Assembly: GCA_017620335.1 (NCBI GenBank)
Contig: JAFZQO010000052.1
Coordinates: 1 to 64,000, forward strand
Reading direction: 5' to 3'
Source of the DNA: Bacteroidales bacterium
GTDB taxonomy: Bacteria; Bacteroidota; Bacteroidia; Bacteroidales; UBA932
Length of the DNA stretch: 64,000 nt
A model generated the notes under the pieces. That model saw only the letters and a list, made by a program, of their open reading frames with translations, was not told where the DNA came from and did no database searches. The position numbers and the translations under genes are program-made. Of this stretch, positions 20,321-25,833 are shown one piece after another; position 1 is the stretch's first letter; each line of letters opens with the position of its first letter.

Positions 20321-22567
20321 CTATTCAGCGGCTTCGGCTGCAGCATCCGCTGCGGCTTCGGCGGTTTCGACGACGGCTTCAGCCGCCTCCTCGACCGGAG
20401 CAGGCTCTGCGACCTTCTCCACCTTCGGTTTGCGCTCTATACCCATGAACTTCAGGTTGTTGGTGAAGTAACCGACGGCGAACGCAACTACCAGCAGGAA
20501 TATCAGCCAGCGCAGGATACGCTTCCAGAGCGGGGGACGCATCGAGTACGGGTCGGCGACATGCACCTTCGGATACTTGGCCACGGAGGTCAGGGTCTTG
20601 CCGAAGAGGATGTTGACCAGTACTGCTGAGTTCATGGCCCAGCCGTTGGCGTTGAGGACGGGTCCGAGGTTGCGCTTGCGGAGCTTGCGCCATGCGATGA
20701 AGCAGGCAGGGCCGGAGATGATGAGCATCAGGACTGCGATAAGGATCAGCCACTTCCACCATACCATGCCCTTGAGGGCGTTGATGATAAGGGTGAGGAC
20801 GCCCGCCACCGCAGCAATGGCCATTGTCACCATCGCGGCGATACCTGCAAACTTGGCAACGTCGAAAGGAGCAGCCTTGGTGGCTTCGTTCACGCCGTCT
20901 TTCGGTTTGTTGGTAGCGCTGTCCGATATCTTGGTCATCGTATCCATTCCCTTGGAATCCTTTTCAGAAGCGGACTTGTCGATCTTGCTGGAGATGAAAT
21001 TGCCGAACTTGCGGTAAGGGCTCCAGAAGGCCTGACGGACGCTGATGGGGTTGTCGACCACCTTGGTGATGACGGCGTCCCAGTCTTTGCCTTCCCTGTC
21101 ATAGAACACGCCGTTGACTCCGGGGCGGAGGTTGCGGATGTTGCCGGCAGTCATGACTGCGGCGATGTTCATGGTCTCGCCCTTGGCCTTGGAGGTGCAG
21201 GCACAGTAGATCAGGAACATGTTGCTGAGTCCGGCCATGTCGGCGTGCTTGCCCATGTCCTCGACGCGGATACAAAGCTCGCAGCAGCGCTCGTCGATGT
21301 AGAGCTTGCCGACCTCAAAGACCGCCAGCTTCTCCGGATCGCGGGTATAGAAGTCGCTGAGGATCACGTAGTTGTTGAGCAGCTTCGCGAAATGCGCATA
21401 GTAGCGGACGAGCTTGCAGGCCTCGTCGATGCCGCTGGCTTCGGCTTCCTGTGCCTTATCGTCCTCGATAAGGGCGAGGAGGGCCGGCTTGCCGTCGGCC
21501 GCGAGGACGGCCTTGACTTCGTCAAGTCCGAGCGGCTCGACCTCGGCGCCGGCCTTCGCCGCCTTCCAGGCGGTGTACGGCGCGAGGCTGGCGACCACCT
21601 CGTTCCACTCGGCCTCGGTAACCCCGTCCTTGTCCGCGAACGAGGGCACAAGGGCCTTGACCGTATCGACGGCGGCCTTCCAGGCGGGGTTGATGCCGGT
21701 GAACGGGAGTACCTGCTCCTTGCACGGGCGGGCTATCGGATACGAGGCTATCTCCGCCTCCTGCTCGGCGAGGTTGCCGCCGGCGATGGCGACTATCTTC
21801 TCGACGTCGACGTCCACCGCCGGCGCGGCGGCGTCGTCGAAGGCGATGAGCTTGCAGCGCATGAAGAAGTCCTGGACCTTGGCCTGGACGGCCTCGACGG
21901 CGGCGTTTACGGCCTCGGTGCCCTCGCCGTAAGGCAGCGCCTCGGCGCCGGCCGCCTGCCAGGCGGCGTACGCGCCGGCCGCTTCGTAGAACTTCTCGAC
22001 AAGTTCTGCCGTCACGCCGGCCTCGCCGCTGCGGTCTTCTGCTGAACCGACTGTATCGACTATCTGTCCTATGGTCTTCTTGATATCCTCGGCATCGGCG
22101 GAAGCGGCGGTGATGATACCGTCTCCGTTGAATTTCGTGCCAGCGAAAATCTTGGTCGTATCCTCTATGTCTTCCAGAGCGAGTTCGTCTTTCTCAAGGC
22201 CGAGATAGTCCAGGATGCGCTTCGCGGAATCGCAGAGCTTCTTTCCGGCTTCATTGTCCGTGTCGATGAGCGACAGCGGAAGGGCCTTGCGGCCTTCCAG
22301 GATGGAATCCTTGTCCTTGATGACAGAGGTCAGCCACTGGGCGGCCGCCACGACCTCCGGGACGCGGATCTTGCTATCCGCATCGGTATCAAGGAGCTCG
22401 AGCGTCTTCGCGTCGAACTCCAGCCCCTTTGTCGGACAGCTGAGCACCGTCCAGAGCTTCTGGTCCAACTCTCCGAGGTGTGCGAGGTCCTCGCCGCACG
22501 CCACCTTGACCCTGACCACTCCGCCTACGGAGCAGTACTGCCAGTTGTATTTGTCGTCTTTTTTCAT
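20321..22567 (-). CDS. Large uncharacterised membrane protein with acidic, EF-hand-like segments
   Basis: 748 residues, no signal peptide. The first 550 residues are predicted soluble, very acidic and Ala-rich, with EF-hand-like loops (LLDTDADSKIRVPEV near 58-72, and FNGDGIITAASADAED near 145-160). Three hydrophobic helices lie near 570-595, 602-628 and 685-705. The C-terminal tail (about 715-748) is Glu/Ala-rich. I do not recognise a named family. Cytoplasmic location of the large N-terminal part is inferred from the missing signal. A near-consensus -7 box (TATCTTTA, 22622-22615) lies upstream. Calcium binding is only a possibility. Confidence 0.8.
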   Translation of the reverse strand: MKKDDKYNWQYCSVGGVVRVKVACGEDLAHLGELDQKLWTVLSCPTKGLEFDAKTLELLDTDADSKIRVPEVVAAAQWLTSVIKDKDSILEGRKALPLSLIDTDNEAGKKLCDSAKRILDYLGLEKDELALEDIEDTTKIFAGTKFNGDGIITAASADAEDIKKTIGQIVDTVGSAEDRSGEAGVTAELVEKFYEAAGAYAAWQAAGAEALPYGEGTEAVNAAVEAVQAKVQDFFMRCKLIAFDDAAAPAVDVDVEKIVAIAGGNLAEQEAEIASYPIARPCKEQVLPFTGINPAWKAAVDTVKALVPSFADKDGVTEAEWNEVVASLAPYTAWKAAKAGAEVEPLGLDEVKAVLAADGKPALLALIEDDKAQEAEASGIDEACKLVRYYAHFAKLLNNYVILSDFYTRDPEKLAVFEVGKLYIDERCCELCIRVEDMGKHADMAGLSNMFLIYCACTSKAKGETMNIAAVMTAGNIRNLRPGVNGVFYDREGKDWDAVITKVVDNPISVRQAFWSPYRKFGNFISSKIDKSASEKDSKGMDTMTKISDSATNKPKDGVNEATKAAPFDVAKFAGIAAMVTMAIAAVAGVLTLIINALKGMVWWKWLILIAVLMLIISGPACFIAWRKLRKRNLGPVLNANGWAMNSAVLVNILFGKTLTSVAKYPKVHVADPYSMRPPLWKRILRWLIFLLVVAFAVGYFTNNLKFMGIERKPKVEKVAEPAPVEEAAEAVVETAEAAADAAAEAAE

Positions 22568-22634
22568 GGTTAGAGAGATTATATCCTGTCTTTAAGAGGT
22601 TATTTCCAGTCTTGTAAAGATAATAAAAAAGTTT

Positions 22635-22691
22635 CAGGATGCTTGTCGCGGCATCCTGAAATCGTTGAAAAAGACCGGGTATCCCCGGTTT
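22635..22691 (-). terminator. Two tandem terminators after the rSAM/lipoprotein operon
   Basis: Read leftwards, a first hairpin (22689-22674, ACCGGGG/CCCGGT) is followed by CTTTTTC, and a second 8-bp hairpin (CAGGATGC/GCATCCTG, 22658-22635) by a T-run at 22630-22625. Both fit the end of the lipoprotein operon. Confidence 0.7.
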
Positions 22692-22718: not shown

Positions 22719-23195
22719 CTATTTCTTGACCATGTAGGTGTCCGCCTCCGCTTGGAAGGCGCCTTCATACCAGTTCTTGTCGCCCTTCTTCGTCTGAACG
22801 ACGTGAGGCTTCTCCACGGTCTTGGCGTATTCGCCGCCATGCCGCTCGCCGTCGACGTCCTCGAAGACGACGGTTACGTCATCGGGCGGACTGAAAACGG
22901 ATTTCTCCATCAGATACGCTCCATTGAAGTCGGTGAAAACGGTGTCGTCCTCGTACCAGTCGTTCTGGTCATAAAAGACCGAAGATGTATTCTCGTAGTG
23001 CCTGTGCCCCCGGATGGCGACGCGGATGCCCTCGATGGGTTTTCCGTCCTCATTCCGGACGGTACCCAGGACCTTGAAATCGGCATGGGGTTCGCCGTAC
23101 ATGCAGAGTCCTATCCCCAGCCACGAACAGGATGAAAAACCCAGCAGTCCGAGCAATGTCGTCGCCAGGAACTTAAAGATGCTTTTCCCTTTCAT
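22719..23195 (-). CDS. rSAM-associated lipoprotein, second copy
   Basis: 158-residue lipoprotein with lipobox GFSSC. After the lipid Cys comes the shared block CMYGEPHADFKVLGTV and an Ig/carboxypeptidase-regulatory-like fold (GKPIEGIRVAIR, then DDVTVVFEDVDGERHGGEY). It is a clear paralogue of the product of the gene just upstream, which lies 5 bases away. Together they match the putative lipoprotein of the Bacteroidota rSAM/lipoprotein system (recalled as TIGR04134). Probable substrate or partner of the radical SAM enzyme; modification site unknown. This copy has an extra stretch (HYENTSSVFYDQND). Confidence 0.82.
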   Translation of the reverse strand: MKGKSIFKFLATTLLGLLGFSSCSWLGIGLCMYGEPHADFKVLGTVRNEDGKPIEGIRVAIRGHRHYENTSSVFYDQNDWYEDDTVFTDFNGAYLMEKSVFSPPDDVTVVFEDVDGERHGGEYAKTVEKPHVVQTKKGDKNWYEGAFQAEADTYMVKK

Positions 23196-23200
23196 ACCCG

Positions 23201-23662
23201 TTACTTTTTATTCATTTTCACATTGGCCCTGGCCTCGAAGGCGCCTTTATTCCAGGAGCCGTCGCCCTTCTTGGTCTGCTTGACGTCAGGGGTCGCCTCA
23301 GCCTTCTCGAACTCACCGCCGTTCGCCGCTCCGTCGATGTCCTCGAAAACGATCCTGACGCTGCTCGGCCCGTTGAAAGCCTGCGTGGTCAAAAGATACT
23401 CACCTTTACTGTCAGTATATACGGTATCCTTCACTTCGGAGGAGCTGGGGACCGTCAGCCGGACGGCGACACGGATACCTTCCAACGGTTTTCCCGACTT
23501 GTCCTTGACGGTACCGACAGCCTTGAAAGTTGCATAAGGCTGGCCGTACATGCACATCATTTCCCCGTTCTCGTAGATATCGAGCGCTTTTTCGCAGGAA
23601 GCGAAACCCAGGATGCCGAGTACGGCCGCAGTCAGTGATTTGAGGACTCCTTTTATTTTCAT
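23201..23662 (-). CDS. rSAM-associated lipoprotein, first copy
   Basis: 153 residues from ATG 23662 (MKIKGVLKS). Lipobox GFASC, then MCMYGQPYATFKAVGTV, GKPLEGIRVAVR and VRIVFEDIDGAANGGEF, closely parallel to the downstream paralogue. The start overlaps the stop of the radical SAM gene by 4 bases (ATGA); this coupling decides against the longer frame that begins inside the rSAM gene at 23689. Role as in the other copy: presumed target of the radical SAM enzyme, exported to the periplasm or surface. Confidence 0.84.
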   Translation of the reverse strand: MKIKGVLKSLTAAVLGILGFASCEKALDIYENGEMMCMYGQPYATFKAVGTVKDKSGKPLEGIRVAVRLTVPSSSEVKDTVYTDSKGEYLLTTQAFNGPSSVRIVFEDIDGAANGGEFEKAEATPDVKQTKKGDGSWNKGAFEARANVKMNKK

Positions 23663-24738
23663 TTCTCTGTCATTTTTAGCATTAAACATTGGACCAGCCT
23701 GCCGTTTTCATCGCGCAGGTGCATGCCGTTGCCGCGGCAATACTTCCAGTAGCGGCAGCCGGCGCAGTCGTCCTTCTTCATCCACGAACGGTCGCGGTAG
23801 GGCTGGTAGCGATTGTTCCACACATCCATGAAATCATCCTTGTAGATGTTTCCCTGGACATAGTCGGCGCGTATGCTCGGGCAGGCGGAGATCGACCCGT
23901 CCGCCAGGACCGAGCCCACGGTCACGCCCGCCTCGCACATGAAGAAATGGTCGCGGACGTCGCCTTCGTAGTTCCCAAGAAAGCCCTCGCAGGCGAACGA
24001 CGTCTTGATGCGGCCTTCCTTGCGCGTGGCCTTGATGAAGTCCATCAGGCTCCGGAGCTCCTTTCCGTCGAGGAGCAGCTCGGGGTCGTTAGCCGCCCTG
24101 CCGACGGGGAAGATGGTGAACAGGCGCCAGGACTTGAGGCCGAGGCCGATCAGGTATTCCTTCAGCTCATTGAGCTGGGGGAGGCTGCGCTTGTTCACGC
24201 AGGTGACGACGTCGAACTCTATCTCACCCGAGTCGATGACCATCTTGATGGCTTCCGAGGCCTGCTTGAACGTGCCGGGACGGCCGCGCATCCAGTCATG
24301 GACCTCGCCAAGTCCGTCCAGGCTGATGGTCATGGCCCTCAGGCCGCTGGCCAGCAGGCTGGCATAGCGCTCCTGAGTGAGCGCAAGGCCGTTGGTGACC
24401 ATTCCCCAAGGGAAACCGCGGTCGTAAATGGCACGGCCGCATTTCTCCAGGTCGCGGCGGACCAGGGGCTCCCCGCCGGTGATGTTGACCATCACCTTAT
24501 GCGGGTCGCACTCCCGCGCGACCGAGTCCAGCGCCCGGCAGAAATCCTCTACCGGCATGTCCTTAACGGCGGACTGGACGCGGCAGTCGCTGCCGCAATG
24601 CCTGCAGGACAGGTTGCAGCGCAGCGTGCACTCCCAGAACAGCTGGCGGAGCACATGTTCCTCCACCGCATCGTCCTGGAGCCGTTTCACTATGTCCAGC
24701 GCAAGCCTGCGCCTCAACGAAAGTGCTTCCATATTCAT
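23659..24738 (-). CDS. Radical SAM/SPASM enzyme of the rSAM/lipoprotein system
   Basis: 359 residues. The radical SAM cluster motif is C41-NLS-C45-RH-C48 (CNLSCRHC), with a GGEP motif after it (VNITGGEPLVRRD near 83-95). The C-terminal SPASM region has Cys in SACPS, then DDCAGCRYWKYCRGNG and a last Cys in LVQCL, enough for one or two auxiliary clusters. Such enzymes modify peptides or proteins. The two tandem lipoproteins follow with a 4-base overlap; this arrangement matches a system recalled as TIGR04133. The chemistry is not known. A near-consensus -7 box (TATCTTTA, 24779-24772) precedes it. Confidence 0.88.
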   Translation of the reverse strand: MNMEALSLRRRLALDIVKRLQDDAVEEHVLRQLFWECTLRCNLSCRHCGSDCRVQSAVKDMPVEDFCRALDSVARECDPHKVMVNITGGEPLVRRDLEKCGRAIYDRGFPWGMVTNGLALTQERYASLLASGLRAMTISLDGLGEVHDWMRGRPGTFKQASEAIKMVIDSGEIEFDVVTCVNKRSLPQLNELKEYLIGLGLKSWRLFTIFPVGRAANDPELLLDGKELRSLMDFIKATRKEGRIKTSFACEGFLGNYEGDVRDHFFMCEAGVTVGSVLADGSISACPSIRADYVQGNIYKDDFMDVWNNRYQPYRDRSWMKKDDCAGCRYWKYCRGNGMHLRDENGRLVQCLMLKMTEK

Positions 24739-24788: not shown

Positions 24789-24912
24789 CCGCAGGTTAAG
24801 GCGTTTTCGCCCTGACCTGCGGGTAAACGCCCGCACGTCAACGCATTTTTGGCCTGACCTGCGGGTAAACGCCCGCACGTCAAGGCTTTTTGGGGGGTAA
24901 CGTGCGGGAAAA
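24789..24912. repeat. REP-like hairpin cluster next to the RAYT gene
   Basis: Two identical 31-base copies (24811-24841 and 24853-24883, period 42) each contain TGACCTGCGGG, loop TAAACG, and CCCGCACGTCA, an 11-bp inverted repeat with one mismatch. To the left, CCGCAGGT (24789-24796) pairs with the ACCTGCGG of copy 1. A partial third copy (TAACGTGCGGG, 24898-24908) lies in the transposase gene. Copy 2 contains the stop codon of that gene. Confidence 0.8.
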
Positions 24913-25833
24913 CTCACCGGTGTGGAAGTATTTATCCAACTCCAGCGATGGAGGGTTGAGATTATAAATGCAATTCTTCCGGACCCTGTCGACAAGGCTG
25001 GTATCAACGTCCTCGCTGTCAAAACGGATTCTGGACAGGTCGAAGCCTGCTTTACTGGCGATGTAATTCATCCGGTCATAATCCTTGTAATCTTCCTGGG
25101 AGCCGTCTTCCGTCAAATCGTACTCGCTCCCCTTTACCAAATCTAAGATTTCCGAAACAGATTCCTTTGACGGCCACTTTGATAACATGACGCGATAATC
25201 AATAACATTGTAAACAGACACAATCATATCAAGAATCTGCTGGTACTGCTTTTCATTCATACCGCTCGTCAATGCACTAAAGAAAGAATAATCTATATAC
25301 CGTCCCAAACCGTGTGCTTTTTCTATTTCCCTATATTTGATTCTCATCATATCCGGTGCTGATGCAAAGTCGAATGCGTCGGAAAAAGGTGACTTGGAAT
25401 CCATATAAGCGAGGAAGTTCCATCGATATTCGATGGCATGTTCTGCCGCCTTCTTGGGAACAGGATTATTGCCGATATAAATCATACAATCATAAATGTC
25501 TGATTCATTGTATTTTGGCGCGCTGCCAAATGATTTCTTAAAAAGTTTGCCTCTCCTTTGATACCTTACATTATATAATCTTGCAAAGGTTGAACAGACT
25601 GCGTTTATGAACAACTCCATATTCTCCGGGGAGCCAAAGTGTCCGAGGATATGGAAATGGTTTTTCATAATACACAAAGAGGCTATACGAATATGATACT
25701 TGATAGAATAGCTACACAGGAGAGTAAAGAAAACTATTACATCGGCATCGGTGTAGAAGATGATGCCGCGATCGACGGAGATCTGGAAGACATGCTGGTA
25801 GCCCTTCCTGTTAAATTTGCGCTTGGGTGTCAT
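24880..25833 (-). mobile_element. REP-associated tyrosine transposase (RAYT, Y1/IS200-like)
   Basis: 317-residue single-strand transposase of the Y1 (HUH) family. The HUH motif is in MKNHFHILGHF (about 57-67) and the candidate nucleophile Tyr is in the helix after SDIYDCMIYIGNNP (about 110-130). A C-terminal region (about 170-317) extends beyond the Y1 domain, as in many RAYTs. There are no flanking insertion-sequence ends; instead REP-like hairpins overlap and follow the stop, as expected for a domesticated RAYT that mobilises REP sequences. Clearly more AT-rich than its neighbours. Confidence 0.85.

Follow-up and report, generated by a model that had tools for sequence, protein, structure and literature searches.

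A radical SAM enzyme gene coupled to two lipoprotein genes

The window, by which we mean the whole analysed stretch of 64,000 nucleotides from a Bacteroidales bacterium, carries on its reverse strand a gene for a radical SAM/SPASM enzyme followed by two genes for related lipoproteins, which are 49% identical to each other. The features of this operon are:

24738-23659, reverse strand: radical SAM/SPASM enzyme, TIGR04133, 359 aa; proposed to be splicease-like
23662-23201, reverse strand: first lipoprotein, TIGR04134, 153 aa; lipobox GFASC, Cys23
23597..23662, reverse strand: signal peptide of the first lipoprotein; proposed recognition leader
23537..23551, reverse strand: putative site of splicing in the first lipoprotein, MYGQP (residues 38-42)
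23195-22719, reverse strand: second lipoprotein, TIGR04134, 158 aa; lipobox GFSSC, Cys23
23130..23195, reverse strand: signal peptide of the second lipoprotein, assigned on the same basis from the aligned lipoproteins
23088..23102, reverse strand: putative site of splicing in the second lipoprotein, MYGEP (residues 32-36)
22674..22689, reverse strand: weaker terminator-like hairpin, 6 pairs, T run
22632..22661, reverse strand: terminator-like hairpin, 11 pairs, T run

As the initial annotation had it, the enzyme gene overlaps the first lipoprotein gene by four bases, the stop codon TGA (23661-23659) and the start codon ATG (from 23662) together reading ATGA, and the second lipoprotein gene begins after a five-base gap. 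The sequence block that it described as shared by the two lipoproteins is likewise present (CMYGQPYATFK and CMYGEPHADFK), as is EDIDG/EDVDG. The tandem terminators that it placed at the end of the operon survive in part: there are two hairpins with T runs (fold z -2.85), but only the 11-pair one is convincing by itself, because a scan of 4 kb finds 4 terminator-like sites where 3.9 would be expected.

Upstream of the enzyme gene lies an ORF for a Y1/REP-type transposase (24880-25833, reverse strand), and between it and the enzyme start are two identical 28-base palindromic REP-like repeats (window 24813-24882), the second of which overlaps the last bases of the transposase ORF. Six copies of this repeat with at most three mismatches occur in the same genome, against none in the control. 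Downstream of the operon, a 748-aa ORF (window 20321-22567, reverse strand) matches nothing in NCBIfam or Pfam at E 0.01. The genome possesses a second TIGR04133 gene on another contig (C7, L004 1052-2553), which overlaps a lipoprotein gene by one base. A search of the same genome for further lipopeptides with a five-row profile returned only the signal peptide of the second lipoprotein (E < 0.1).

Family assignment and predicted structures

The initial annotation had assigned the operon to the rSAM/lipoprotein system, and this assignment was correct: the enzyme scores 575 bits against TIGR04133 (cut-off 425), and the lipoproteins score 110.7 and 103.5 bits against TIGR04134 (cut-off 39.8). 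Both are NCBIfam hypothetical equivalogs whose names give no chemistry and no product. The evidence for the radical SAM/SPASM assignment comprises the CNLSCRHC signature (CX3CX2C) and a PF04055 match (61.7 bits, cut-off 29.5) for the radical SAM domain, a PF13186 match (32.6 bits, cut-off 21.5) for the SPASM domain, and the segment CNLSCRHCGSDC. The canonical cysteine spacing of the SPASM domain is CX2CX5CX3C; the SPASM cysteines that had been noted in the enzyme are present except for the fourth (CAGCRYWKYCRGNG), which is missing in all 20 TIGR04133 enzymes of our tree set. The next-best NCBIfam matches are TIGR03913 (132.2 bits), TIGR04103 (131.9 bits, against a cut-off of 725) and TIGR04053 (128.1 bits).

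The predicted fold of the enzyme resembles SuiB, SkfB and PqqE and, further down among the matches, the epimerase EpeE; the model contains no extra recognition domain. The first lipoprotein is predicted to form a transthyretin-like sandwich from residue 43 onwards, with MYGQP modelled at low confidence as a linker just before the first strand. No solved structure was related to this lipoprotein by sequence at E 0.01.

A recurrent tyrosine motif in the lipoproteins of enzyme loci

We analysed 144 loci with a TIGR04133 enzyme (141 distinct enzymes), namely the window, 60 loci from genomes of its family, three plasmid records and 80 loci from named genomes; three pairs of loci have the same sequence (L055/L126, L059/L131, L061/L137). 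The 60 were taken from 71 TIGR04133 places in the window's own family, the other 11 being the window, four others and six of a lower-scoring clade B; one further locus (L261) yielded no enzyme. Neighbouring ORFs were collected if they had the lipoprotein signal type, lay on the strand of the enzyme and within 1.3 kb of it; the motif was not required, and the signal pattern was drawn up after the family had been seen. This filter returned 178 signal-bearing ORFs, spread over 127 of the 144 loci; the remaining 17 had none.

Y[GA]xP occurs in 147 of these 178 ORFs, Y[GA]xxP in nine, Y[GA] without the proline in six and neither in 16, most of which resemble chance frames by eye, though all were kept in the count. 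With shuffled mature parts, Y[GA]xP appeared in 6.5 of 178 on average and in at most 19. Distinct mature parts number 172, and 141 of them have Y[GA]xP. A second background count, on other lipoproteins, was contaminated by family members and was set aside.

The residue before the tyrosine is mostly Glu (73 of 161 distinct sites) or Met (53 of 161); YA takes the place of YG at 10 of the 161, and one lipopeptide has YS (L153). The median distance of the motif behind the lipobox is 10 residues. In an alignment of 34 lipoproteins (A4), whose rows were chosen for the motif, the invariant columns are G19, C23, Y39, G40 and P42. A cysteine two residues before the tyrosine is found at only 34 of the 161 distinct sites, and the cysteine of CMYG is therefore incidental: the recurrent core is Y-[G/A]-x-P. 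The advice in the initial annotation to look for conserved residues especially in CMYG and EDxDG is not supported, in view of this cysteine and of 25 motif-bearing lipopeptides that do not match the TIGR04134-body model (see below). Its suggestion of more than one target per enzyme gains support from the surplus of signal-bearing ORFs over loci and from unlinked copies in the same genomes.

Among 143 adjacent lipoprotein-like ORFs, 104 lie upstream and 39 downstream of the enzyme, so the window has the less common gene order. Several lipoproteins of a real-looking kind have no motif (L045, L049, the second of L192, L112b), and in L037 it stands in a later loop instead of behind the lipobox. 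Clade B proteins read ACYGTP, the cysteine adjoining YG being the lipid anchor itself. The lipoprotein encoded upstream of the second TIGR04133 enzyme of the window's genome (L004) has a lipobox reading ACYGTGPD, with the lipidated cysteine directly before YG; in the clade of this locus, the x of xYG would be the cysteine that bears the lipid.

A larger RiPP cluster was considered and rejected: clustering of the 773 neighbour ORFs of at least 100 aa at the 144 loci gave lipoprotein clusters (95 and 13 loci), and no non-lipoprotein family at more than seven. The seven-locus cluster has an ABC transporter ATP-binding protein as its representative. A serpin adjoins the enzyme at two of the 144 loci (L148 3755-5026, reverse strand, Pfam PF00079; L183, by BLAST), and another (L111 2-958, reverse strand, PF00079) lies beside an unlinked TIGR04134 lipoprotein; such neighbours are too few to argue from.

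The same motif on other bodies

Judged with the TIGR04134-body model at E 0.001, 124 distinct motif-bearing proteins match and 26 fail. One of the latter (L094, 336 aa) resembles an unrelated enzyme and was left out, leaving 25 lipopeptides; two of these, L040 (E 0.0023) and the longer of the L095 proteins (E 0.27), could be truncated or remote versions of the TIGR04134 body. These lipopeptides have 35-101 residues after the cysteine, and they carry the motif near the lipobox, in mid-chain or at the C-terminus (at mature-chain residues 57-73 in L195, L199 and L187), in up to three copies (CEKPGPDMYGPPLAMYGPPMYGPP, L128). They include proline-rich forms (LMYGVPP), coiled-coil-like forms with a C-terminal motif (VVYGPRPGK, LVYGPP, LLYAVP) and tandem forms (DMYGPPLAMYGPPMYGPP). 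The short ones have only Y[GA]x(x)P in common. Most of the lipopeptides share an LLGF-C signal, three reading SLIFMACYGPAP. Since the motif is kept despite replacement of the body and shifts along the chain, we infer that it is most simply the site of action; the signal type, being kept on unrelated bodies, would most simply be the recognition element.

Motif and presence of the enzyme

Copies and homologues outside the enzyme loci allow the motif to be set against the presence of the enzyme. Unlinked TIGR04134-like copies in enzyme-bearing genomes have the motif in 12 of 15 cases. None of 14 sub-cut-off homologues from genomes without a TIGR04133 match has it, the enzyme-less state of these genomes being defined by a search at E 1e-100, with G057 alone re-searched at 1e-10; nor is there a motif behind the lipobox in four copies whose genomes gave no enzyme match at 1e-10. 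The comparison of 12/15 with 0/18 in this small sample counts sites behind the lipobox only, mixes close and distant homologues and omits three rows from genomes with enzyme remnants (two with the motif, one without). One of the four copies from genomes without the enzyme (L100, genome G004) reads EYGVP within its domain, and among sub-cut-off homologues in enzyme-bearing genomes one of six matches the motif.

Two motif-keeping genomes first scored as enzyme-less (G058, G031) contain enzyme remnants. The first has a TIGR04133 fragment with one stop (G058:C1:158933-159490) and, on a separate contig, a lipoprotein that still bears the motif, as would fit a recent loss of the enzyme; the second has a C-terminal enzyme fragment beside a lipoprotein, and also one copy without the motif (L097). 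The linkage of motif and enzyme is support rather than proof, because the homologues serving as controls are more remote than the positives.

Relatives of the enzyme and their partners

In a 42-row tree, a 100/99 branch places TIGR04133 together with TIGR04103/TIGR03913-type and Agathobacter-like enzymes on one side and MftC, NirJ, TIGR04053, TIGR04347 and AhbD-like rows on the other. The tree without MftC and NirJ gives 100/100 with a long-branch warning, and the TIGR04133 stem is long. The RHIZ and THIOD rows of a preceding tree were left out of the 42-row tree for their long branches. The trees were built without PqqE, SkfB, NirJ2 and other SPASM families. The AU test rejects a grouping of TIGR04133 with AhbD-like enzymes (p 0.0004) and with TIGR04053 (p 0.011), and gives no rejection for MftC (p 0.099). 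The tetrapeptide HCGS after CX3CX2C is present in 31 of 31 rows of the TIGR04133/TIGR04103/TIGR03913/Agathobacter-like group and in none of the 11 others.

The partners of these relatives bear comparable sites. A Nostoc plasmid has a TIGR04103 enzyme (853 bits) beside a Nif11 peptide ending in ALYGLPPELF (GGRGSIALYGLPPELF), and TIGR03913-type enzymes adjoin DUF1843 peptides with LYGGA, PYGVA, LYAAG or MYMAT. Of the five Agathobacter-like loci read, three show a comparable motif close by: MYGTG in an ORF of 35 residues (L119), LYGTPP in a protein (L256) whose counterpart in L255 reads LYMAH, and six KYGYP sites in a protein encoded downstream of a TIGR04103-like HCGS radical SAM enzyme, the genome being of the window's order (L258); L257 has no motif-bearing ORF nearby. 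In a genome of the same phylum and another class (G308, L259), the TIGR04133 partner LLSVLGFPFLLNGYDRPQPEYGVREP, encoded upstream of the enzyme, has an EYG site and no clear lipobox cysteine.

A splicease-like reaction and its alternatives

The available sections of two reports (PMC11002830, PMC10373908) describe PlpX as excising tyramine at Xaa-Tyr-Gly, with several events per precursor possible, and the spliced products as protease inhibitors. Xaa-Tyr-Gly is found in both lipoproteins of the window, as MYGQP and MYGEP. On the strength of the partner motifs, the tree grouping, the HCGS tetrapeptide and this literature, we propose that the enzyme is splicease-like and would cut tyramine out at xYG, so that an alpha-ketoamide is left close to the lipid anchor; we put the probability of this reading at roughly two in three. 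The proposal is that the TIGR04133 enzyme may work like a splicease, without membership in TIGR04103: the window enzyme is not filed there because it scores below the cut-off, is short of one SPASM cysteine and has no PlpY-like partner of at least 100 aa in its neighbourhood.

Under this proposal, the enzyme would bind the precursor while it is still in the cytosol and not yet exported. The conserved LLGF-C signal peptide would probably be the leader that it recognises, and it would act on the tyrosine of xYGxP, so that tyramine leaves and a backbone alpha-ketoamide remains. After export, lipidation at Cys23 and anchoring, the spliced protein would carry its electrophile in the flexible linker that joins the lipid to the beta-sandwich. 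The likely use would be the covalent trapping of a nucleophile, most simply of a protease with residue x as P1.

A different radical chemistry on the same tyrosine, namely a crosslink, epimerisation or oxidation at Tyr or x with no excision, is an unlikely outcome that nevertheless deserves weight. The structural matches of the predicted enzyme model, SuiB, SkfB, PqqE and, further down, EpeE, differ in their chemistries; the SPASM cysteines are unlike those of TIGR04103 enzymes; and the grouping with MftC, which acts on a tyrosine according to the available part of PMC8326336, is not rejected by the AU test. A crosslink would call for a second conserved partner residue, whereas the invariant columns of A4 offer none and the short lipopeptides share the motif alone; and, against this whole class of reactions, those relatives whose substrates contain xYG are of the characterised splicease type or close to it.

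The reading in which xYGxP is a sorting or folding signal, the enzyme acting elsewhere, has some appeal in that export signals of Bacteroidota lipoproteins sit close behind the lipobox, as the motif often does. We consider it quite improbable in view of the mid-chain, C-terminal and repeated motifs of the lipopeptides, the enzyme-less homologues that do not have it and the xYG sites in non-lipoprotein peptides adjoining related enzymes. There is a very slim chance indeed that the enzyme makes a sactipeptide- or ranthipeptide-like thioether at the cysteine of CMYG: both window proteins have a cysteine two before the tyrosine and SkfB is a close fold match, but this position is so seldom a cysteine across the distinct sites that the donor expected of such peptides is wanting, and in clade B the cysteine adjoining YG is the lipid anchor. 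We have thus rejected the cysteine as the target.

Distribution and implications

Within the window's own family, 60 of 149 genomes have the TIGR04133 enzyme; in a phylum-wide draw the figure is three of 395, the window's genome being counted in both. A pattern scan found at least 576 relatives; the 80 loci kept from these matches are, with few exceptions, from Bacteroidales or genera of that order, and largely from animal gut and rumen. A Treponema plasmid carries an enzyme/lipoprotein pair with CYGMPENYY. A viral origin was considered and rejected, there being no relative among 64 pattern matches in viral contigs.

Extending the proposed reaction to these organisms, we tentatively suggest, while regarding it as doubtful, that many gut and rumen Bacteroidales might display backbone-spliced alpha-ketoamide lipoproteins and very small lipopeptides on their envelope as a genome-encoded family of membrane-anchored covalent protease inhibitors, with the signal peptide as leader and residue x (mainly Glu or Met) picking the protease. 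If tyramine excision holds, the enzyme family can be credited with a reaction on a defined residue and with an expected mass shift (loss of C8H9NO, about 135 Da), and ribosomal beta-amino acids reach lipid-anchored envelope proteins of gut bacteria. The ketoamide could then serve as a chemical handle to find such lipoproteins in cells; the available part of PMC10533398 reports successful tetrazine ligation of the aminopyruvate form that arises at GYG.

Comparison with known systems

Literature searches by the family names found no papers, and among the titles and abstract starts listed by broader searches none ties TIGR04133/TIGR04134 to tyramine excision, although Scott 2022, Morinaka 2018 and Lakis 2022 may include the family; the first of these surveyed 939 predicted splicease systems according to the available part of PMC10533398. 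The available parts of PMC10352776, PMC8939145, PMC10885120, PMC11117315 and PMC10994174 do not mention TIGR04133.

MftC, whose target is the terminal Val-Tyr of a small peptide, is like TIGR04133 a tyrosine-directed SPASM enzyme that the AU test does not separate from it, but it has HCLS in place of HCGS. The TIGR03913 (GDL) type falls in the same tree group as TIGR04133 and has DUF1843 peptides with xY[G/A/M] near the N-terminus; unlike TIGR04134 proteins, these are 54-70 aa long and have no signal peptide. The spliceotide systems comprise PlpX/PlpY and TIGR04103 (nif11-class rSAM maturase 3), which we take to be the IPR026482 of PlpX. Like TIGR04133, they have a SPASM radical SAM enzyme of the same tree group, with HCGS in the Nostoc TIGR04103 member, whose partner contains xYGxP (ALYGLPPELF), and a precursor can have several sites; the published splice tag GGPIRPLYGLPI reads LYGLPI (PMC10533398, available part). 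They differ in that their partner is a Nif11 peptide in place of an exported lipoprotein and that PlpX works with PlpY, whereas TIGR04133 loci show no PlpY-like partner among neighbour ORFs of at least 100 aa; TIGR04133 enzymes, for their part, miss the fourth, CX3C cysteine, and the window enzyme falls far below the TIGR04103 cut-off. With respect to the rSAM/lipoprotein pair itself, the window is a plain member of both TIGR04133 and TIGR04134, and what is new here relative to the NCBIfam entries is the splice-like motif together with substrates that carry it on other bodies.
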